DNA from: Alphaproteobacteria bacterium
Lineage (GTDB): Bacteria > Pseudomonadota > Alphaproteobacteria > Micropepsales > Micropepsaceae
DNA length: 64,000 nucleotides
Assembly: GCA_015654635.1 (NCBI GenBank)
Contig: JAATGP010000069.1
Span: 106,627 to 170,626, forward strand
Reading direction: 5' to 3'
A model generated the notes under the pieces. The model had not been told where the DNA came from. It was given only the letters and a program-made list of their open reading frames with translations, and did no database searches. Below, one piece after another: positions 50,928 to 62,186 of this stretch. The stretch's first letter is position 1, and each line of letters starts with the position of its first letter. The translations under genes were made by a program, and so were the position numbers.

Positions 50928-52595
50928 TCAGCTCCGTGCCTTGCTGCGGATATCGATCAGTTGCTTCATGATGCTGGCGAGATTGCCTCGTCCGGTTTCG
51001 GTGCCAAAGGCATCATGCAGGGTGCGGTAGATCGCATAGAGGTCCTTGTAGACCGCGTGCGCAGCCGGATCGGGCTGGTAGACCTTCTCTTTCAGGCCGG
51101 TCATGGCTTTGATCGCTGTCGCGAAATCGGGATGGGCTTTGGCCACCACGGCGGCGGCAATGGCGGAGCCGAGCGCCGGAGTTTGTGCAGAACGCGAAAC
51201 CTTCATCGGGCGGCCCGTGACGTCGGCATAGAGTTGCATCACGAAGGCATTCTTTTCGGCGATGCCGCCGCAATTGACAACAGTGTCGATGGCGACGCCG
51301 TATTCCTCGAAGCGGTTGATGATGGTGAGGGCGCCGAACGCGGTCGCTTCGACCAGCGCGCGATAGATTTCGGCCGGTGTGGTGTAGAGGGTCTGCCCCA
51401 ACAGCAGGCCCGTCAGCCGCTGATCGACCAGGATGGTGCGGTTGCCGTTGTTCCAGTCGAGCGCGACAAGCCCGCTTTCGCCCGGCTTCAGCTTGGCGGC
51501 TTGCTCTGTCAGTTCGACATGACCAAGCCCCGCTGGTTTTACGTATTCGACGAACCAGTTGAAGATGTCACCGACCGCCGATTGGCCCGCTTCGAGGCCG
51601 AAATAGCCGGGCAGCACACTGCCATCGACGATGCCGCAAACGCCGGGAACGTCGGCGAGTTTGTCGCTATTGACCTTGACGGTGATATCGCAGGTCGACG
51701 TGCCGATGATCTTGACCAGCACGCCCGGCGCGACGCCAGCGCCGATCGCGCCCAAATGGCAATCGAACGCGCCCACCGCCACGGGGATGCCCGCCTTAAG
51801 GCCGGTCTTTTGCGACCACTCGGGCGAAAGTCCGCCGACGGCGGAATCCACGGCTTTGACGCGCGGTGTCAGCCGGTCGCGCAAGGACGCAAGCTTGGGA
51901 TCGAGCTTGGCGAGAAACTCGGCGTCGGGATAGCCGCCCCATTCCTTGCAATACATCGCCTTGTGTCCGGCGGCGCAAATGCCGGCGATGAAAGTGTCTG
52001 GATGCAGCGTACCGGTCATCGCCGCGGGCACGAAATCCGCGAGTTCGATCCAACTATGAGCCGCATCGAAGACGTCAGGGGCGGTGTGCAGGCAATGCAG
52101 GATTTTGGAATAGAACCACTCGCTCGAATAAACCCCGCCGATCTTGGCAAGGTATTGCGGGCGCATCTCGGCCGCGCGCTTGGTGATCTCGGCCGCTTCC
52201 GCCCAGCCGGTATGATCCTTCCACAGCCAAGCCATGGCAGCAGGGTTTTCCGCCCATCTTTTCTGCAAGGCGAGGGGGATGCCGTTCGCATCGACGGGCA
52301 TCGGCGTGGAGCCAGTGGTATCGACTCCGATGCCGGCCACTTGTGACGGGGCAAAGCCCGGCACCGTATCGGCGGCTGCGGCCAGCGCTTCGACAATCGT
52401 CAGCTCGGCTCCCTTCAGATAATCGGCTGGATGCTGGCGGGCAACATTCGGGTCCTTGTCCAGGACGACGCCTTGGTGGCCATGCGCGTAAGTCCATATT
52501 GCGGAACCAACTTCGCGGCCGTCCGCTACGTCGACCACCAGCGCGCGAACGGAATTGGTCCCGTAGTCGAGACCGATCGCATAACGACTGTCCAT
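50928..52595 (-). CDS. araB: Ribulokinase
   Basis: YAIGLDYGTNSVRALVVDVADG; LAMAWLWKDHT-type region; GAFDCHLGAIGAGV. Confidence 0.96.
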   Translation of the reverse strand: MDSRYAIGLDYGTNSVRALVVDVADGREVGSAIWTYAHGHQGVVLDKDPNVARQHPADYLKGAELTIVEALAAAADTVPGFAPSQVAGIGVDTTGSTPMPVDANGIPLALQKRWAENPAAMAWLWKDHTGWAEAAEITKRAAEMRPQYLAKIGGVYSSEWFYSKILHCLHTAPDVFDAAHSWIELADFVPAAMTGTLHPDTFIAGICAAGHKAMYCKEWGGYPDAEFLAKLDPKLASLRDRLTPRVKAVDSAVGGLSPEWSQKTGLKAGIPVAVGAFDCHLGAIGAGVAPGVLVKIIGTSTCDITVKVNSDKLADVPGVCGIVDGSVLPGYFGLEAGQSAVGDIFNWFVEYVKPAGLGHVELTEQAAKLKPGESGLVALDWNNGNRTILVDQRLTGLLLGQTLYTTPAEIYRALVEATAFGALTIINRFEEYGVAIDTVVNCGGIAEKNAFVMQLYADVTGRPMKVSRSAQTPALGSAIAAAVVAKAHPDFATAIKAMTGLKEKVYQPDPAAHAVYKDLYAIYRTLHDAFGTETGRGNLASIMKQLIDIRSKARS

Positions 52596-52620
52596 GCTTC
52601 TTCCCAGAATCCGTTGGAGG

Positions 52621-54147
52621 TTAAATTGCCCAACCCTGATTGAGGGCGTAGTAGACTTCGTTGGTACGCAACGTCTGTTTGAAGTCGCGGATCTTGGTGT
52701 CGGCATCGATCACCAGGAATTCGATGCCGGCGATCGTCGCGAAGTCCTCAAGCATTTCGGTGGTCGCTGCCAGGCTGAACGCCGAATGGTGCGCACCGCC
52801 CGCCAGGATCCAGGCCATCGCCGCGGATTCGAAATCAGGGCGTGCCTTCCACACCGCGCGGGCCACCGGCAGCTTGGGCATGTCGTGCGGCGCCTTGATC
52901 ACGTCGACTTCGTTGACGATGAGGCGGAAGCGGTTGCCGAGATCGATCAGCGAGGTGGCCGTGGCCGGCCCCTCGGCGGACTCGAACACCAGACGCGCCG
53001 GGTCTTCCTTGCCGCCGATGCCAAGCTTGTGGACTTCGAGCTTGGGCCTGTCCGCGGCGATGGATGGGCAGATTTCCAGCATATGAGCGGCGAGATTGCA
53101 CATGTTCGCCGGATCGAGGTGGTAGGTGTAGTCTTCCATGAACGAGGTGCCGCCTTTGAGGCCGGTCGTCATGGTCTTGACCGCGCGCACCAGGGCGGCG
53201 GTCTTCCAGTCGCCTTCGGCACCGAAACCGTAGCCGTCGGCCATCAGGCGCTGCGAGCCGATGCCCGGCAACTGCGCCATCCCGTAAAGGTCTTCGAAGG
53301 TGTTGGTGTAGCCCTTGGCGCCGACCTCTTTCAGGAAGACGCGCATGCCCGCTTCGATCTTCGCGGCGCCCCGCACGGATGCGTAATGGGCGCCGCCTTT
53401 CTTCACGTCGGGCGACAGGACATAGGCATCGGCATATTCGGCGATCAGATCGTCAACCTGCTTGTCGCTGACCGCATCGATCCGTTTCACCAGATCGCCG
53501 ACGGCGTAATAGTTGACCGAGAAACCGAATTTGAACTGTGCCGATACCTTGTCGCCGTCGGTAACCGCCACTTCGCGCATATTGTCGCCGAAACGGACGA
53601 ACTTGGCACCTTGCCAATCGGCCCAGGCGAGCGCCGCGCGCGTGAAGGCGCCGATTTTCTCTTGTACCTTAGGATCCTGCCAATAGCCGACGACGACCTT
53701 GCGGTCCTTTCTGAGGCGCGTCCAGATGAACCCGTGCTCGCGGTCGCCATGGGCCGCTTGGTTCAGATTCATGAAGTCCATATCGATGGAGGCCCAAGGA
53801 ATGTCGCGGTTGTATTGCGTGTGCAGATGAACGGCGGGCTTCTGCAGGTGCTTAAGACCGTTGATCCACATTTTCGAGGGCGAGAAGGTGTGGCACCAGG
53901 TGATGAGACCGATGCAGGCCGGCGAATTGTTAGCGGCAGCAACAAGTTCATCAACCGACTCAGGCGATACAAGGACCGGTTTGAAGACGACTCTGACTGG
54001 AATGGCGGGCGAGGCGTCGAGTGCCTTGGCGATTTCGCTGGAATCGGCGGCGACTTGTTTCAGCGTCTCAGGGCCATAGAGATGCTGGCTTCCGGTTACA
54101 AACCACACTTCGCGATCGCGCACTTTGAGCATCGGCCATCTCTGCAT
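52621..54147 (-). CDS. araA: L-arabinose isomerase
   Basis: [51 protein letters not shown]. Confidence 0.97.
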
Positions 54148-54193
54148 CTATTTCGTCTGAGTTATTAGCATGGCTGCTTTTGAGTTGCATCAA

Positions 54194-54204
54194 AAATCAG
54201 ACAA
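54194..54204 (-). promoter_or_regulatory. Operator-like site (minus strand TTGTCTGATTT) between araA and the divergent lactonase/dehydrogenase unit
   Basis: Same 11-mer as upstream of galM, read on the minus strand. Confidence 0.5.
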
Positions 54205-54290
54205 ATATGCGATGGGGCGGCCTGCCGCACGAGGCACGGAAGCAGCGGGCGCCGCGATGTCACGGGCTTGTGGTTGAGGCTTTGTCTAGG

Positions 54291-54781
54291 GTGCCGCAGG
54301 CCACGCTCCTCAATGACTGGGAGAGGGTCATGCCGCTCATCCGGTAGTGGACCGACATCAAGGCCCGGGGGCTCTATTCTTGCGGGTGGCCGTCCAAAAC
54401 CGTACGGCGGTACAGCTTGCCGCTTTCCCGATGGCGTTGCCGTTGATTGCAGTGGCTGCGTCCGGATTGCGCAATGGGGGAGGTGCCGTAGTACGCCACA
54501 CTCCAGGCGGGAAGGCCGATCGCGTCCTGCAATTGCCGATTCGGCTGTCGACATGCGTCTGCTTTGGTGGCAGCGCTCTCGACCTTCTTTTCGTATCCAC
54601 AGCACGTGCCGGTCTGGACGATTCGACGCTTGCCTCACAATCTGGTGCGGGTAACGTGTTTGTGTACACTGTGGGCGCGCAAGGTCTGCCGGAGCATCGT
54701 TTTGATATGCACGGATGGCCTTCCGGCAATCGGAACGACGAGATTGAAGAAATAGAACCACGTCCGTTGGATAGCAGTTGA
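54291..54781 (+). pseudogene. SMP-30/gluconolactonase (arabinolactonase-type) pseudogene with in-frame stop, internal deletion and frameshift
   Basis: Pieces in order but different frames: WTDIKARGLYSCGWPSKTVRRYSLP / FPDGVAVDCSGCVRIAQWG / GGAVVRHTPGGKADRVLQLPIRLSTCVCFGGSALDLLFVSTARAGLDDSTLASQSGAGNVFVYTVGAQGLPEHRFDM. Confidence 0.72.
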
Positions 54782-55764
54782 CAGAAAAGCAGCCTCACCT
54801 GAACCAAATTCAACATGTTCACCGGCAGGAAGAGAACTTGCAGCCTATTCGGATCGGCGTTATCGGCCTCGGCAAGATTGCCCTTGAAGAACACGTCCCG
54901 GCGATAAGGGCCGACGGCGCGTATGAAATCGTCGCCGGTGCTGGACGGGATGCAACACTGGAAGGCATTCCTTGTTTTGCGTCTCTCGATGAGATGTTTG
55001 ATGCTGGCCCTCCGCTCGACGCCGTCGCGATTTGCACGCCGCCGCAATTGCATTACGCCATGGCCAAGGCCGCCCTGGAACGGCATTGCCATGTGCTGCT
55101 GGAAAAGCCGCCATGCCTGACCGTCGCCGAATTCGACGATCTCGTTACCACCGCTGCGGCTAAGGGGGCGAGCTTTTTCCAGGCTTGGCACGCGCGCGAG
55201 ACCCCAGTGATCGAGGTCGCGCAGCGCTGGCTTGCCGGCCGGCGCATCCTGGGTGGAGGCGTTGTCTGGACGGAGGACGTCCGCCTTTCTCACCCCCACC
55301 AGGACTGGATTTGGCAAGCGGATGGTTTCGGCGTTCTCGACGCGGGTATCAATGCCATCTCGATTCTGACGCGGATTTTGTCGGACCCAATTACGGTGGA
55401 CCACGCAACGTTGCTCGTCCCGTCGGATTGCCAAAGCCCGATCGCGGCGAGGGTCGGTTTCCGAATGCAAGGTGCGGCCATCGATGCCGATTTCGATTTT
55501 CGCGTTCCGGTGATTTATGAGCGCCAGATAACGCTCGAAACCGAGGACGGCACGCTCACGCTTTTGGGGCACGGCAGCGAGCTTTTGATCGATGGCCGCG
55601 CCACCGCCGCGGCTGGGCAGACGAGCGAATACGCCGAGTTGTACCGGCGGTTTAGAGAGCTTATCGCGCGTGGTGCATCCGACAACGACAAGCGGCCCCT
55701 CGAACTCGTGGTCGACATTTTTCGGGTGGCGGAGCGTATAGCCATCGCACCGCTCTCAAGCTGA
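54778..55764 (+). CDS. Gfo/Idh/MocA family oxidoreductase (D-galactose/L-arabinose 1-dehydrogenase-like)
   Basis: RIGVIGLGKIALEEHVPAIRADGAYEIVAGAGR; VLLEKPPCLTVAEFDDL; start overlaps pseudogene stop (TTGA). Confidence 0.85.
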   Translation: MTEKQPHLNQIQHVHRQEENLQPIRIGVIGLGKIALEEHVPAIRADGAYEIVAGAGRDATLEGIPCFASLDEMFDAGPPLDAVAICTPPQLHYAMAKAALERHCHVLLEKPPCLTVAEFDDLVTTAAAKGASFFQAWHARETPVIEVAQRWLAGRRILGGGVVWTEDVRLSHPHQDWIWQADGFGVLDAGINAISILTRILSDPITVDHATLLVPSDCQSPIAARVGFRMQGAAIDADFDFRVPVIYERQITLETEDGTLTLLGHGSELLIDGRATAAAGQTSEYAELYRRFRELIARGASDNDKRPLELVVDIFRVAERIAIAPLSS

Positions 55765-55784
55765 TGGTGGCAGAGGTGCGCCGT

Positions 55785-56561
55785 TCAGGTGCGCGGTGGA
55801 CGCGTCAAGAGTCGCGATCCCGAGTCCCGAGCTTTTTGCGACAAGGGAATATCCTGGAGTGCCAGTCTGACCAACGTGCTCATCTCACGCTGCGCCCGTT
55901 CGGGGTTGCGGTCGGCGATCGCCTGGAAAACCCGCAAGTGATCGGGAACGGGGTCACGGGGCAGCGGCTTTTCCCGTTGTTTGAACATTGTGGTCGTCTT
56001 GACCGCCGCATTCACGCCAGTGGTGAGCGAGATGAAATAGGGATTGTCGGTGGCCTGAAGCAGGCTCTCATGAAAGGCGGTATCGCCATCTTGGCCCTCT
56101 TCGGAGGCTAAGGTGCGAGCGGCCATTCGCTCGATGCCGTCGCGCATGGCGTCCAAATCCTTGGTGGTGCGCCGGACGGCTGCGAGGGCGGCCGCGGCGG
56201 ATTCGACGACATCGCGCAACTCAAAGAGGCTCTCGAGCAGCGCCAGATCGGGCTCGTTTTCGAAGGTCCACGCCAGCACGTCCGGATCGAGCATGTGCCA
56301 CTTGCTTAATGGACTGACCTTCGTGCCGACCTTCGGCTTGGACTCGACCAGTCCTTTGGCGGCCAGGATGCGGACGGCTTCGCGATAGGCGGTGCGCGAA
56401 ACGGCCAGTTTGGCGCTGGATGCCACTTCACCGAACAACAAATCGCCGGGCTTATATTGGCCGCTGGTGATCGCCACGCCGAGATCGCGCGCAATCGTTC
56501 CGTGTAAACGCAAGCTTTTGCTGATCGGGTGTAGGCGACCAACGGGTACAAGTTTAACCAT
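55785..56561 (-). CDS. FadR-subfamily GntR transcriptional regulator (FCD domain)
   Basis: wHTH ...GDLLFGEVASSAKLAVSRTAYREAVRILAAKGLVESKPKVGTKV; FCD LFELRDVVESAAAALAA, DTAFHESLLQATDNPYF. Confidence 0.92.
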   Translation of the reverse strand: MVKLVPVGRLHPISKSLRLHGTIARDLGVAITSGQYKPGDLLFGEVASSAKLAVSRTAYREAVRILAAKGLVESKPKVGTKVSPLSKWHMLDPDVLAWTFENEPDLALLESLFELRDVVESAAAALAAVRRTTKDLDAMRDGIERMAARTLASEEGQDGDTAFHESLLQATDNPYFISLTTGVNAAVKTTTMFKQREKPLPRDPVPDHLRVFQAIADRNPERAQREMSTLVRLALQDIPLSQKARDSGSRLLTRPPRT

Positions 56562-56592
56562 CGTATCCGGCCAATAAATCCCGCCTCGTCAA

Positions 56593-56608
56593 TATATATC
56601 CATATATA
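56593..56608. promoter_or_regulatory. AT-only palindrome TATATAT-CC-ATATATA immediately upstream of gntR
   Basis: Perfect 7-bp arms, 2-nt spacer in a GC-rich background. Confidence 0.4.
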
Positions 56609-56671
56609 CTCCAACATTACCGCTGACAAATACAACGAAAATTGCGCCACCCCGGTCCTGCAATATCGTAC

Positions 56672-56682
56672 TTGTCGGGCAA
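56672..56682 (-). promoter_or_regulatory. Operator-like site TTGTCGGGCAA upstream of gntR
   Basis: 9/10 arm match to shared motif (listed as read on the + strand). Confidence 0.45.
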
Positions 56683-57012
56683 ATGAGGCCATTCACAGCA
56701 TCCAGGCTCTGCGGTCGATAGGCAAACGAATGCCAATTTTGCACGCCACCAGGCGCGCTCCTTGATGTTTTGCGAGGAACAATGGTCAGCGGACGGATTT
56801 CAAACATCCTCGGTCGCCACAGCGCCGGAGGGGGGCTGACGATTCGTGTGTGCAAAACCGGGGATTGCGAGAAGAGGACTTCCCAGCCGTCGCCCCACGT
56901 CATGGGCGGCGGGCACGTGTGGCGGATAGCGCGAACGAACGGAAAATCGGCAATCGGCACAGGAAGGTGCTGCCATCGGGCGTGGCCGTTCCCTCGTTTG
57001 ATCCGGCATAAC

Positions 57013-57023
57013 TTGTCTGGCAT
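57013..57023 (+). promoter_or_regulatory. Operator-like site TTGTCTGGCAT upstream of second GH39
   Basis: 8/10 arm match to shared motif. Confidence 0.45.
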
Positions 57024-57038
57024 ATGCAAAGACGAATT

Positions 57039-58724
57039 ATGGACAGGATCGCGGCCATGGCCAGCTCATTCATCGCATCTTCCGTATTCGCCTTGGCTCT
57101 CGCTGTCCCCGCTGCGGCGCAGAACGCCGCAATACCCGTAACCCTCTCGGTCGACGCCTCGCATGTTGAGGGCGTGGTGAAGCCGATCTGGCGCTTCTTC
57201 GGGGCCGACGAGCCAAATTATGCGACGATGAAAGACGGCCGCACGACGCTGGCCACGCTCGGAAGCCTCAAGCCGGGTGCGGTCTATTTCCGGACGCACA
57301 ATCTTCTCACCTCGGGCGACGGAACGCCGGCGCTGAAGTGGGGTTCGACCAACATCTATACCGAAGATGCTGCGGGCCATCCGGTCTACAACTGGACCAT
57401 CGTCGACCACATCTTCGATACCTATCTGGCGCGCGGCGTGAAGCCTTATGTCGAGATCGGCTTCATGCCGGAAGCGCTTTCGATCAAGCCGCAACCCTAT
57501 CAGCACAATTTCCGGCCCGGCAGCGGCGACATCCGGACCGGTTGGGCTTTCCCGCCCAAGGACTACGGCAAATGGGAAGAACTCGTTTATCAGTGGGTGC
57601 GCCACTGCATCGGCCGCTATGGCCGGGCCGAGGTTGCGAGCTGGTACTTTGAAACCTGGAACGAAGCCAATCTGCCTCAATATTACTGGGGCGGCACGCA
57701 AGACGAGTTTTTCAAGCTGTACGACGCGGCCGTGCACGGCGTCCGCCGGGCGCTGCCTGAGGCACGGGTGGGTGGGCCGGACATCGCCGGAACCAGCGAC
57801 ACTTTCCTCACCGATTTCATGAACCATGTGAAAAAAGCGGGGACGCCGACCGATTTCCTGTCTTTCCACGCCAAAGGCAGTCCCAAATTCATCGGGGAGG
57901 GCGGCCAGGGCCATGTGGAGATGGGCATTGCCACCCACCTTCAGGCCGCTGATCGTGAATTTGCCCAGATCGCCGCCAATCCGGCGTTCCGCACCAAACC
58001 CATCGTCATCGGCGAGTCCGATCCGGAAGGATGCGCAGCCTGCCAGGGCCCAGCCAACGCCTATCGGAACGGGACGATGTATGCGAGCTACACGGCGGCC
58101 GTTTTTCCGCGCCTGCGCGCGCTTGCCGAACGCCGCGGTGTGAATCTCGAAGGTGTGCTCACCTGGGCGTTCGAGTTTGAAGACCAACCCTATTTCGCCG
58201 GCTTCCGGCAGTTGACGTCGGCCGGGATCGATCTGCCGGTCATCAATGTCTTCAAGTTGTTTTCTAAAATGAACGGCCGCTACGTCCGGTCATTCTCGGA
58301 CCGCCAAATACCGCTGGATCAGGTGATGAAGGATGGCGTCCGCAGCGCCCCGGATGTGGGGAGTGTCGCCACGCTGGACGGCAACACACTGACGGTCTTG
58401 GTCTGGCATTATCACGATGACGACGTGGCGGGGCTGGACGCCGAGGTTCGGCTCGCGCTGCGCGGCCTGCCCAAGGCGTTCGGCAAGGCCATCGCCGTCA
58501 CTCAGTATCGCATCGATAGGGATCATGCGAACAGCTACGCGGCATGGTTGGCGATGGGCTCGCCGATCGCGCCAACGGACGAGCAGCGAACGGCGTTGCT
58601 GCAGGCCGCGCAGCTCGTCCCCATGCAAGATGTGAGCACCCTTACGGTTGTTGGGGGCAATGCCGCGCTCGAATTTCGTTTGCCGCGTCAGGGCGTGTCG
58701 CTGATTGTCCTAAGGCCCATATAG
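57039..58724 (+). CDS. GH39-family glycoside hydrolase (beta-xylosidase-like), second copy
   Basis: Signal peptide; VYFRTHNLLTSGDG; SWYFETWNEANLPQYYWGGTQDEFFKLYDAAVHGVRRALPEARVGGPDIAG; IVIGESDPEGCAAC. Confidence 0.85.
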   Translation: MDRIAAMASSFIASSVFALALAVPAAAQNAAIPVTLSVDASHVEGVVKPIWRFFGADEPNYATMKDGRTTLATLGSLKPGAVYFRTHNLLTSGDGTPALKWGSTNIYTEDAAGHPVYNWTIVDHIFDTYLARGVKPYVEIGFMPEALSIKPQPYQHNFRPGSGDIRTGWAFPPKDYGKWEELVYQWVRHCIGRYGRAEVASWYFETWNEANLPQYYWGGTQDEFFKLYDAAVHGVRRALPEARVGGPDIAGTSDTFLTDFMNHVKKAGTPTDFLSFHAKGSPKFIGEGGQGHVEMGIATHLQAADREFAQIAANPAFRTKPIVIGESDPEGCAACQGPANAYRNGTMYASYTAAVFPRLRALAERRGVNLEGVLTWAFEFEDQPYFAGFRQLTSAGIDLPVINVFKLFSKMNGRYVRSFSDRQIPLDQVMKDGVRSAPDVGSVATLDGNTLTVLVWHYHDDDVAGLDAEVRLALRGLPKAFGKAIAVTQYRIDRDHANSYAAWLAMGSPIAPTDEQRTALLQAAQLVPMQDVSTLTVVGGNAALEFRLPRQGVSLIVLRPI

Positions 58725-58801: not shown

Positions 58802-59154
58802 TACATTGCAGGCAAAGAACGCCGCGTCAGCACGAGGTAAGGAACATTCGCGCTTGCTAGGGATGCTGCTGAGGATTGGTATCTGGAGCGGCGTGGCAAG
58901 TTCCGCGCGGGCACCCTCAGGAACGGTAAGACCTTCAGGCGCGCCGCGGAAAGTTCCTGCCCGAGTATAAGGTCATAACGCTCGGGCAGCGCAGCCCGCA
59001 TTACGGGAAGAGGCATGGCGACCGGCTACGCGTTCCCTTGCTGCTCTTCTTCGGCAACAAACCGGCCGGTGAACGCATTCTTGACATCGAGCTACCGGGC
59101 AAGAACCGCGTTGGTCTTTGCAAGAGGATGCGGAGCCTTCAATACAATCAATGA
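58802..59154 (+). pseudogene. Tyrosine recombinase (phage-type integrase) N-terminal relic with in-frame stop, frameshift and truncation
   Basis: YIAGKERRVSTR*GTFALARDAAEDWYLERRGKFRAGTLRNGKTFRRAAE, then shifted frame FLPEYKVITLGQRSPHYGKRHGDRLRVPLLLFFGNKPAGERILDIELPG. Confidence 0.72.
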
Positions 59155-59212: not shown

Positions 59213-61036
59213 ATGCAGAAGCCGAAGGAACTTGAGACAGTCACCGACATCTGTCTCGTCATACCTGCGTTCGATACACTGAATCTGACACCGCTCGGCA
59301 CTTCTGTTCTGATTGCCGCCTGCCGGCAGCGGGGCCTGCAGGTCGGCGCGGTTTATGCCAGCGTGCTGATGGCGGCGCGCATCGGCTACGACGTCTACGA
59401 AACGATTTGCAAGACTTTGGTGCGCAAGCAGCCGGGCGAATACATTTTCAAGCCGCACGCTTATCCGCCGGAGGTGCTGGCACGGATTCCCGAGGGCATT
59501 GAGCATCCCAAAATGCGCGATTTGATCGCGGCTGTGGCGCCTGCCACCGGACCGCATCTGGATGAGGTCGTCCAAGCGATTGCCGCCAAGAAGCCGCGTA
59601 TTGTCGGCATCACCAATATGTTTCAGCAGAACATGTCGGCCTTCGCCATTTCGCGGCGGGTGCGCATGGTTCTGCCTGAGGCGTTGATTGTCATGGGCGG
59701 TGCCAATGTCACCGGCGTGATGGCAAGGGGGCTCGCACAGGTTTTCGATTGCGTCGATTATTTTTTCGACGGCGAGGCGGACACTGTGTTTCCCGATTTC
59801 TGCGAGGCTTATCTGCATCGCGGCGTGCGGCCTGCCGATCGCATCGTCGGATGCGCGCCGCTACAGAACATGGACGATTCGCCGGACGCCGATTTCTCCG
59901 ACTTCATCGCCGCGATGCGCGAACAGCAGGACGCGGGGCGGCTGCCGTCGGGTCTTCCGGGATATATAACCTATGAGTCCTCGCGCGGCTGTTGGTGGGG
60001 CGCCAAGCATCATTGCACTTTCTGCGGCCTCAACCAGGCAAGCATGAACTTTCGCGAAAAGAGGCCGGAGCGGGTGGTGCGGGAGCTTGTCGCTCTCGAT
60101 CAGCGATGGGGCGGCAGGCCGATTCGCACAGCCGACAACATCATCCCAAACTCCTACTTTACGACGGTGCTGCCGCATCTGGCGGCCCTGCCGCGCCCGC
60201 CCAAACTCTTCTACGAGGCGAAAGCAAATCTCAAGGAGGAGCAGGTGGCCTTGATGCGCAAGGCCGGCATATACAGTATCCAGCCGGGCGTCGAATCCTT
60301 GTCGACGCCGGTCCTGAAGCTGATGCGCAAGGGCATTTCCGCGCATCAGAACATCATGTTGTTGCGCAGCAGCGCCAAGCTCGGCATGCGCGCGGGCTGG
60401 AACTTGATCTACGGCTTTCCGGGCGAGACGCAGCAGAACTATCGCGACATGCTCGCGCTCTTTCCCGCCATCCTGCATATGCGGCCGCCGGATGGCATCT
60501 CCGAAATCATGATGGATCGGTTCAGCCCGAATTTTAACGATCATGAGCGCATGGGCATTCCCGCGATCAAGCCGTTCGAGATCTATCGTGGTCTCTATCC
60601 GTCCGATGCGCCGCTTGACGAGATCGCTTATCACTTCGACGGCATCTACACGACGGAGTTTCTGGAAGACGCGGCGTTGGTAAGAGAATTTTGCGACAGC
60701 GTGGGCCATTGGAAACGCTTGTGGCAGAGCCCGCGGCGTCGGCCGCTTCTGCACCTGGAGATGAGGGCAAACGGCGCAGCGGTCGTCATCGACACAAGAC
60801 CCATCGCGCGCGCACCGCTCGTCGTTCTTTCTCCGGAAGCGGTCAATGCACTGACTCATTTCGAGCGTCCCCGGGCGCGTGAGGGATTGCCCAAAGCCGC
60901 CGCACAGCATCTCGATTTTCTTCTTCAGCACCGTTATGTCGTTGACCACGAAAACTTGCTTCTGAATGTCGTGGTTCAAGGGGTCGCAACCGAGCCGAAA
61001 CCGGCCCGCGCTTTGGTGGCAGCCGCAGTCTCGTGA
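59213..61036 (+). CDS. B12-binding radical SAM protein of the RiPP maturation type (RiPP maturation radical SAM protein 1-like)
   Basis: B12-binding-like VGITNMFQQNMSAFAISRRVRMVLPEALIVMGGANV; YESSRGCWWGAKHHCTFCGLNQ (CxxxxxxCxxC); GWNLIYGFPGETQQNYRDM. Confidence 0.82.
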   Translation: MQKPKELETVTDICLVIPAFDTLNLTPLGTSVLIAACRQRGLQVGAVYASVLMAARIGYDVYETICKTLVRKQPGEYIFKPHAYPPEVLARIPEGIEHPKMRDLIAAVAPATGPHLDEVVQAIAAKKPRIVGITNMFQQNMSAFAISRRVRMVLPEALIVMGGANVTGVMARGLAQVFDCVDYFFDGEADTVFPDFCEAYLHRGVRPADRIVGCAPLQNMDDSPDADFSDFIAAMREQQDAGRLPSGLPGYITYESSRGCWWGAKHHCTFCGLNQASMNFREKRPERVVRELVALDQRWGGRPIRTADNIIPNSYFTTVLPHLAALPRPPKLFYEAKANLKEEQVALMRKAGIYSIQPGVESLSTPVLKLMRKGISAHQNIMLLRSSAKLGMRAGWNLIYGFPGETQQNYRDMLALFPAILHMRPPDGISEIMMDRFSPNFNDHERMGIPAIKPFEIYRGLYPSDAPLDEIAYHFDGIYTTEFLEDAALVREFCDSVGHWKRLWQSPRRRPLLHLEMRANGAAVVIDTRPIARAPLVVLSPEAVNALTHFERPRAREGLPKAAAQHLDFLLQHRYVVDHENLLLNVVVQGVATEPKPARALVAAAVS

Positions 61037-61076: not shown

Positions 61077-62090
61077 TTACAGCCGCACAATCAGCTTGCC
61101 GAAATTGGCGCCGCGCAGCAGGCCGATAAAGGCCTTGGGTGCCGTCTCCAGCCCGTCCACGATATCTTCGCGATAGCGCAAGCGTCCCGCGGCGATCCAG
61201 CCCGCCGCCTCGCGATAGAAATCGTCCTGCTGCGCGGCGAATTCGTAGACGATGTAGCCGCGGATCGAGAGGCTTTTGGTCAGCACTTGGCGCATCATGC
61301 CCGCCAAGCGGTCGGGCCCTGCGGGTGCCTCGTCGTTATATTGCGCGATGAGGCCGCAGACCGGCACCCGCGCGAAATCGTTGAGCAGCGGAAACACCGC
61401 ATTCCAAATGGGGCCGCCGACATTCTCGAAATAGACGTCGATCCCTTCGGGGCAGGCCGCTGCAAGCTGGGCCGCAAAATCGGAGCTGCGATGGTCGACC
61501 ACCGCATCGAAACCCAGAACGTCACGGACAAAGGCGCATTTGTCGGCGCCCCCCGCGATGCCCACTGCCCGGGCTCCCTTAATACGGGCGATCTGGCCAA
61601 CCACCGAGCCCACCGCGCCGCTCGCCGCCGCCACCACCACGGTTTCGCCGGGCTTGGGTTTGCCGATCGTCAAAAGACCGGCATAAGCGGTAAATCCCGG
61701 CATGCCGAGCACACCCAGCGCCGTGGTCACGGGCGCCGCCGCCGGATCCAGCTTGCGCAGGCCCGTACCGTCGCAGACGGCAAAGCGCTGCCAGCCGGAA
61801 TAGGACAGCACCACATCGCCGGTGTGATAATCCGGATGACGCGAGGCGATGACCTCGGCCACCGTGCCGCCCACCATCACCGCGTCCACCTCCACCGGCT
61901 TGGCATAGGATTTGGCGGCGTTCATCCGTCCACGCATATAAGGATCGAGCGACAAATACCGGATCTTGAGCAGCACCTCGCCCGCTTTGGGCACCGGCAT
62001 GGGCACCTCTTCGAGGCGGAAATGCTCCGGTCCCGGCCAGCCCACGGGGCGTTTCGCCAGCACAATGCGTTGGTTTGTTTCGGGGGGCAT
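61077..62090 (-). CDS. NADP-dependent oxidoreductase (MDR family, leukotriene B4 12-hydroxydehydrogenase/CurA-like)
   Basis: RIVLAKRPVGWPGPEHFRLEEVPMPVPKAGEVLLKIRYLSLDPYMRGRM; VVVAAASGAVGSVVGQIARIKGARAVGIAGG. Confidence 0.92.
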   Translation of the reverse strand: MPPETNQRIVLAKRPVGWPGPEHFRLEEVPMPVPKAGEVLLKIRYLSLDPYMRGRMNAAKSYAKPVEVDAVMVGGTVAEVIASRHPDYHTGDVVLSYSGWQRFAVCDGTGLRKLDPAAAPVTTALGVLGMPGFTAYAGLLTIGKPKPGETVVVAAASGAVGSVVGQIARIKGARAVGIAGGADKCAFVRDVLGFDAVVDHRSSDFAAQLAAACPEGIDVYFENVGGPIWNAVFPLLNDFARVPVCGLIAQYNDEAPAGPDRLAGMMRQVLTKSLSIRGYIVYEFAAQQDDFYREAAGWIAAGRLRYREDIVDGLETAPKAFIGLLRGANFGKLIVRL

Positions 62091-62186
62091 CGCAGCGTTC
62101 CTATCGGGCCGATGAAGACTACACCCCAAAACCGGCGCGATAAAATGCGGCCTTCTCGCCAGCCCGTGATCCATCCCGTCAAATCA

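Follow-up and report, generated by a model that had tools for sequence, protein, structure and literature searches.

An orphan cobalamin-dependent radical SAM enzyme that probably acts in trans on a lasso-type precursor

RESULTS

The gene studied here (gene A) lies in a window of 64,000 nucleotides, the whole stretch of DNA that was analyzed, and its product is probably a working cobalamin-dependent radical SAM peptide C-methyltransferase, one that serves a dispersed lasso-peptide pathway in trans. An earlier note, made from the letters of the window, had proposed that the enzyme is a relic of a lost RiPP cluster, works in trans on a precursor encoded far away or does something unrelated to RiPPs. 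Of these, the second has the strongest support: the genome also carries, on a different contig, a lasso precursor and a paralogous maturase. The substrate of A is most likely encoded in trans, and the aliphatic core of that substrate would be the site of C-methylation. A function unrelated to RiPPs is disfavored by the tree and by the co-occurrence pattern described below.

Family and fold of the gene A product

The protein matched the RiPP maturation radical SAM C-methyltransferase family TIGR03975 with 521.5 bits (E=2.8e-156; curated cut-off, 281.85), and the alignment of residues 13 to 584 with positions 1 to 602 of the 606-position model makes it a full-length member. The cluster motif and B12-binding-like N terminus claimed in the earlier note are both present, with the Pfam Radical_SAM (PF04055) and B12-binding (PF02310) matches above cut-off, and the family match bears out the reading of A as a RiPP maturase; the outcome that the note had named as counting against it, assignment to a radical SAM family outside the RiPPs, was not obtained. 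The motif GCWWGAKHHCTFCGLN spans residues 259 to 274 and supplies the Cx7Cx2C cluster site, which is conserved in all of the 64 aligned family members. Like the NCBIfam family (rSAM_ocin_1), A combines a full-length match with an N-terminal B12 domain, a Cx7Cx2C core and a small C-terminal domain. However, many of the family members sampled adjoin precursor or other RiPP genes (YcaO/SagB, a PoyD-type epimerase or NHLP-like peptides), an arrangement that is common in TIGR03975 and is not part of the model definition, whereas the clade of A is always unlinked.

The AlphaFold2 model of A had a mean pLDDT of 92.7, and its top Foldseek matches in the PDB were OxsB, TokK, TsrM and CysS (E of about 1e-14 to 1e-13, TM of about 0.5). 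These enzymes have B12 and radical SAM domains of the same fold as A but differ from it in their substrates, which are not RiPP precursors, in their C-terminal parts and in an identity of only 12 to 16%. In the predicted model, the C-terminal domain consists of three strands, helices and a hairpin in a winged-helix-like topology. The fold search gave no significant PDB match for this domain, and hhalign gave a weak match to lasso PqqD proteins (E=9e-5, probability 59%), which suggests a possible RRE-type leader binder. The earlier note had also proposed a check for conserved residues after KPARALVAAAVS; nothing notable was found there, and a conserved C-terminal tail was ruled out because residues 594 to 607 are unconserved in the alignment and of low confidence in the model.

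Table 1. Positions of gene A, its predicted domains and the upstream fragment in the 64-kb window
Feature	Position	Strand	Details
Gene A (orphan), TIGR03975 cobalamin/radical SAM peptide C-methyltransferase	59213..61036	+	607 aa, ATG start, intact ORF
B12-binding domain	59555..59794	+	Residues 115-194 of Pfam match; PF02310 33.4 bits vs cut-off 32.1
Radical SAM core	59978..60460	+	Residues 256-416; PF04055 E=2.8e-13
Cx7Cx2C [4Fe-4S] motif, CWWGAKHHCTFC	59990..60025	+	Residues 260-271
C-terminal winged-helix-like domain, possible RRE-type leader-binding domain	60728..60991	+	Residues 506-593
Degraded integrase-like fragment upstream of A, possible insertion scar	58948..59154	+	tblastn E=3e-4 over 41 aa

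Locus of gene A

No precursor or RiPP gene was found beside A or elsewhere in the 64-kb window; the earlier note had likewise seen no room for a precursor in the two gaps and no leader peptidase, transporter or second maturase. All 884 ORFs of at least 20 aa in the window were scanned for lasso-leader or GPEIL-type cores and none was found, so a precursor inside the window was rejected as the substrate. The reported gaps of 58 nt upstream and 40 nt downstream are correct, the former being the distance between the end of a degraded fragment and the start codon. Upstream, the closest intact gene encodes a GH39 glycoside hydrolase and ends at 58724; downstream lies a convergent zinc-type oxidoreductase gene (61077-62174, minus strand). 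The "integrase relic" beside A is indeed a degraded fragment, and its identity as an integrase is tentative: the matching residues resemble plasmid proteins, one weaker match is annotated as a site-specific integrase, and no Pfam match was obtained. A plasmid origin of A itself was discarded, as plasmid-borne relatives show no more than about 36% identity and come without the precursor. No riboswitch or other Rfam RNA was found near A in the 50- to 64-kb part of the window. The region from 50928 to 58724 contains an apparent arabinose-use group, with an FGGY-type kinase, an arabinose isomerase-like gene, a Gfo/Idh-type oxidoreductase, a GntR-type regulator and the GH39 glycosidase, the last being the one member whose identity was tested.

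A lasso cluster with a paralogous maturase in the same genome

The description of A as an orphan holds for its locus and does not hold for its genome, where contig C76 carries a second TIGR03975 gene (B), 44% identical to A, next to lasso genes. Beside B lies a lasso-type precursor (L004:13801-13986, MMSNQYQEVSAADAVSGGQGEKASWENPSFAVWEDPSFRRIGANEAETGILSGPEILILLS) ending in EDPSFRRIGANEAETGILSGPEILILLS. The cluster further encodes a B2 transglutaminase (NF033537, 62.7 bits; cut-off, 33), a PqqD-type B1 protein (Pfam PqqD, 63 bits), an Asn-synthase-type cyclase, an NTP_transf_5 nucleotidyltransferase and an HprK-like kinase. A lasso precursor together with B1, B2 and C proteins is therefore present in the genome of A, with B2 above its cut-off, B1 recognized by Pfam and C by its Asn-synthase type; the cyclase and the PqqD protein score below the curated NCBIfam lasso "exception" cut-offs. 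The cluster, with its GPEIL precursor and paralogous maturase, looks complete. Three related genomes (G041, G047 and G051) have a similar layout, while in G034 two precursors adjoin B and the lasso enzymes are on another contig. Sphingomonas sp. QA11 has three such enzymes, an orphan A, a B in a lasso cluster and an orphan B', all on one chromosome and separated by about 0.6 to 2.9 Mb.

Two further loci were observed in the genome of A. At C67:61715-62500 (L144:9716-10501), a second precursor core, ETGILFGPEILILLS, occurs with a 92%-identical copy of the PqqD gene and adjoins transposase-like ORFs; the leader of this copy is altered, the usual one being replaced by transposase-overlapping sequence. 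Contig C31 (L165:7562-12595) carries a second lasso-like cluster that has no radical SAM enzyme and consists of a 38%-identical cyclase, a PqqD-like protein, an HprK-like kinase and a precursor-like ORF ending in WVRPEFHAIPLTTAENGTGAVNNPLDGV.

A nearly invariant precursor core

A precursor profile, seeded from genomes with A, was built from seven cluster-linked precursors. It retrieved three more, none with lasso genes alongside: in G049 (ending in AESNIEPGPEILILIS), in G034 (ending in IETGINLGPEIVLILS) and in G041 (ending in AESGLLLGPEIILLLS). G049 holds A and an orphan precursor ending in NIEPGPEILILIS but no B. The core consensus is GxxxGPEI[LVI][IL]L[IL]S, with Gly5, Glu7, Ile8 and Ser13 invariant across 11 cores, and the leader follows the pattern [YW]xxPx[FL]...E[TS]. 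In a class-wide search of 385 genomes, the precursor pattern was matched by none other than the genome of A. The core GILSGPEILILLS, with its invariant Glu7, is compatible with the threaded Gly1-Asp/Glu macrolactam of a predicted lasso product. A Gly1-Glu7 ring is assumed here; seven-residue rings are unusual for lasso peptides, as is the Asn that two of the precursors carry at core position 1.

Phylogeny and co-occurrence of gene A with the precursor

Intact orthologues of A were found in eight genomes, seven of the genus and Sphingomonas sp. QA11, and all are orphans, with no RiPP gene or precursor adjoining any of the eight. The closest relatives are those of Rhizomicrobium MAG_CA125 (91% identity) and of the complete QA11 genome (83%), and five further genus genomes have orthologues at 59 to 62%. 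In a tree of 50 family members, the eight sequences formed a clade (support 100/100) whose sister clade (98/95) comprises B and Sphingomonas lasso enzymes, with a joint branch of 100/99; 10 of the 13 members of the sister clade adjoin lasso genes or a lasso-type precursor. The nearest outgroup genes (L049 and L054) have candidate NHLP-like precursor ORFs directly upstream (L049:3883-4212 and L054:2695-3021), without a family match and with Val/Ile-rich C termini (RIRIRVNVGITL and VTVSVGVKF, respectively), so that peptide substrates with aliphatic tails seem, from these sequences, to be ancestral. G049 also has a TIGR03975 gene (L037:8065-10435) from an otherwise mainly actinobacterial clade, adjoining a divergent, NNN-rich, secreted-like protein of 136 aa that ends near NTIIIVG and may be a different substrate.

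Among the 69 genus genomes, core-containing precursors were found in 6 of the 7 with A and in 0 of the 62 others (Fisher p=6e-8). This value takes no account of relatedness, and it overstates independence, since the genomes with A may all belong to a single clade of the genus. Two other genus genomes had a weak profile match in the leader only. The A genome in which neither a precursor nor B was found is MAG_CA125, an 82%-complete assembly. The same pattern appeared among 201 Sphingomonas genomes, where the precursor pattern and clade A each occurred in QA11 only. Five other Sphingomonas genomes have B-like enzymes and neither A nor the precursor, and in at least three of them the lasso clusters encode another core, GI[SA]YRPTDG[IL][SQ]NLT; A thus tracks the GPEIL core and not lasso clusters generally. 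Between QA11 and the genome of A, the A proteins are 83% identical, whereas B (50%), the cyclase (54%) and PqqD (48%) are far more divergent. Judged by these identities, A seems to have been transferred independently of the lasso cluster, and it occurs where the matching precursor does. The Sphingomonas lasso clusters with the different core and B12 radical SAM enzymes (L207, L209 and L211, in G144, G249 and G207, respectively) also encode a sulfotransferase, a 2OG-Fe(II) oxygenase and an HprK-like kinase, and L209 has an additional radical SAM copy that is apparently broken.

Alternative explanations

A could act in trans on another peptide or protein, with the lasso precursor merely traveling in the same lineages. 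This is the less likely course, although it would account for the lack of physical linkage between A and the precursor in all eight genomes and for the one A genome with no detectable precursor. Nor does the locus give a hint of the substrate: in five Rhizomicrobium relatives A lies near uvrB with no RiPP gene. A functional link to uvrB was itself rejected, as the surrounding genes appear to be housekeeping ones and A is elsewhere in its own genome (where uvrB is split at a contig end), in L045 and in QA11. However, the closest relatives of A are lasso-cluster enzymes, and the co-occurrence repeats in QA11 despite the unequal divergence of A and the cluster.

It is very improbable that A duplicates the in-cluster B, either redundantly or through recent acquisition, and carries out the same methylation. 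In favor of this reading, A and B are sister paralogues that share their domains, and B is found alongside A in most A genomes. However, A forms a separate, old clade with 43 to 48% identity to B, it is retained alongside B in five genus genomes and in QA11, G049 keeps A without B, and Sphingomonas genomes with B-like enzymes and other cores lack A.

The least credible explanation is that A is the unused relic of a lost cluster, an option of the earlier note for which one could cite the lack of an adjoining cluster, the degraded integrase-like fragment upstream and neighborhoods that differ in each close relative (at least four kinds among the eight genomes, including a site flanked by rpsI and a cytochrome oxidase operon in MAG_CA125 and one upstream of a convergent glmS-like gene in QA11), but which is strongly opposed by purifying selection, with a dN/dS of 0.12 to 0.13 (dS of 0.38 to 0.85) among the three closest sequences (its own, MAG_CA125 and QA11), by an intact ORF with cofactor residues invariant in the alignment and by the maintenance of A as an intact orphan in eight genomes.

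DISCUSSION

The cobalamin-dependent radical SAM peptide C-methyltransferases PoyC and PoyB (polytheonamides) and BotRMT1-3 (bottromycin) belong to the enzyme class of A. Such methylases use a 5'-deoxyadenosyl radical and methylcobalamin, and PoyC has a Cx7Cx2C motif and methylates Ile and Val (PMC11285071); the likeness of A to PoyC is drawn from this published description. The genes of these enzymes lie inside their clusters, and the substrates are a proteusin and bottromycin, whereas the predicted substrate of A is a lasso-type precursor encoded elsewhere. With its B1, B2 and C proteins, HprK-like kinase and NTP_transf_5 nucleotidyltransferase, the C76 cluster resembles those of paeninodin and pseudomycoidin, which also have such a kinase and a nucleotidyltransferase, and its precursor ends in Ser, the residue modified by such kinases (PMC9266682). 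It differs from them by the added B12 radical SAM enzymes. In a 2022 review of unusual lasso modifications, C-methylation does not appear and radical SAM enzymes come up only as epimerases acting on other RiPPs (PMC9266682). Our searches of the open-access literature, a scope that mostly excludes subscription papers and preprints, turned up no description of a B12 radical SAM enzyme in a lasso pathway.

We propose that A would bind the leader of the GPEIL precursor, perhaps through its winged-helix-like domain. The 5'-deoxyadenosyl radical would then abstract a hydrogen, and the methyl group of methylcobalamin would pass to an unactivated carbon of the ILIL(L/I) tail. Methylation would precede the removal of the leader and the putative Gly1-Glu7 ring closure by the B1, B2 and C proteins, and the in-cluster B presumably modifies another position, so that A and B may divide the labor.

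On balance, we lean toward the broader reading that the Rhizomicrobium group and one Sphingomonas share a dispersed lasso system whose parts are inherited separately: several unlinked precursors with the nearly invariant 13-residue core GxxxGPEILILLS, the lasso enzymes, and two or three B12 radical SAM C-methyltransferases up to megabases away. If such a system exists, radical C-methylation would be seen in lasso peptides for the first time, and the pathway would be held together by co-inheritance and not by clustering. If A acts as proposed, an "orphan" maturase gains a concrete candidate substrate, and cluster-based genome mining would miss both A and several of the precursors. The scatter and strong conservation of the core point to a conserved biological role over a variable weapon, and B12 radical SAM C-methylation would join the tailoring repertoire of lasso peptides.
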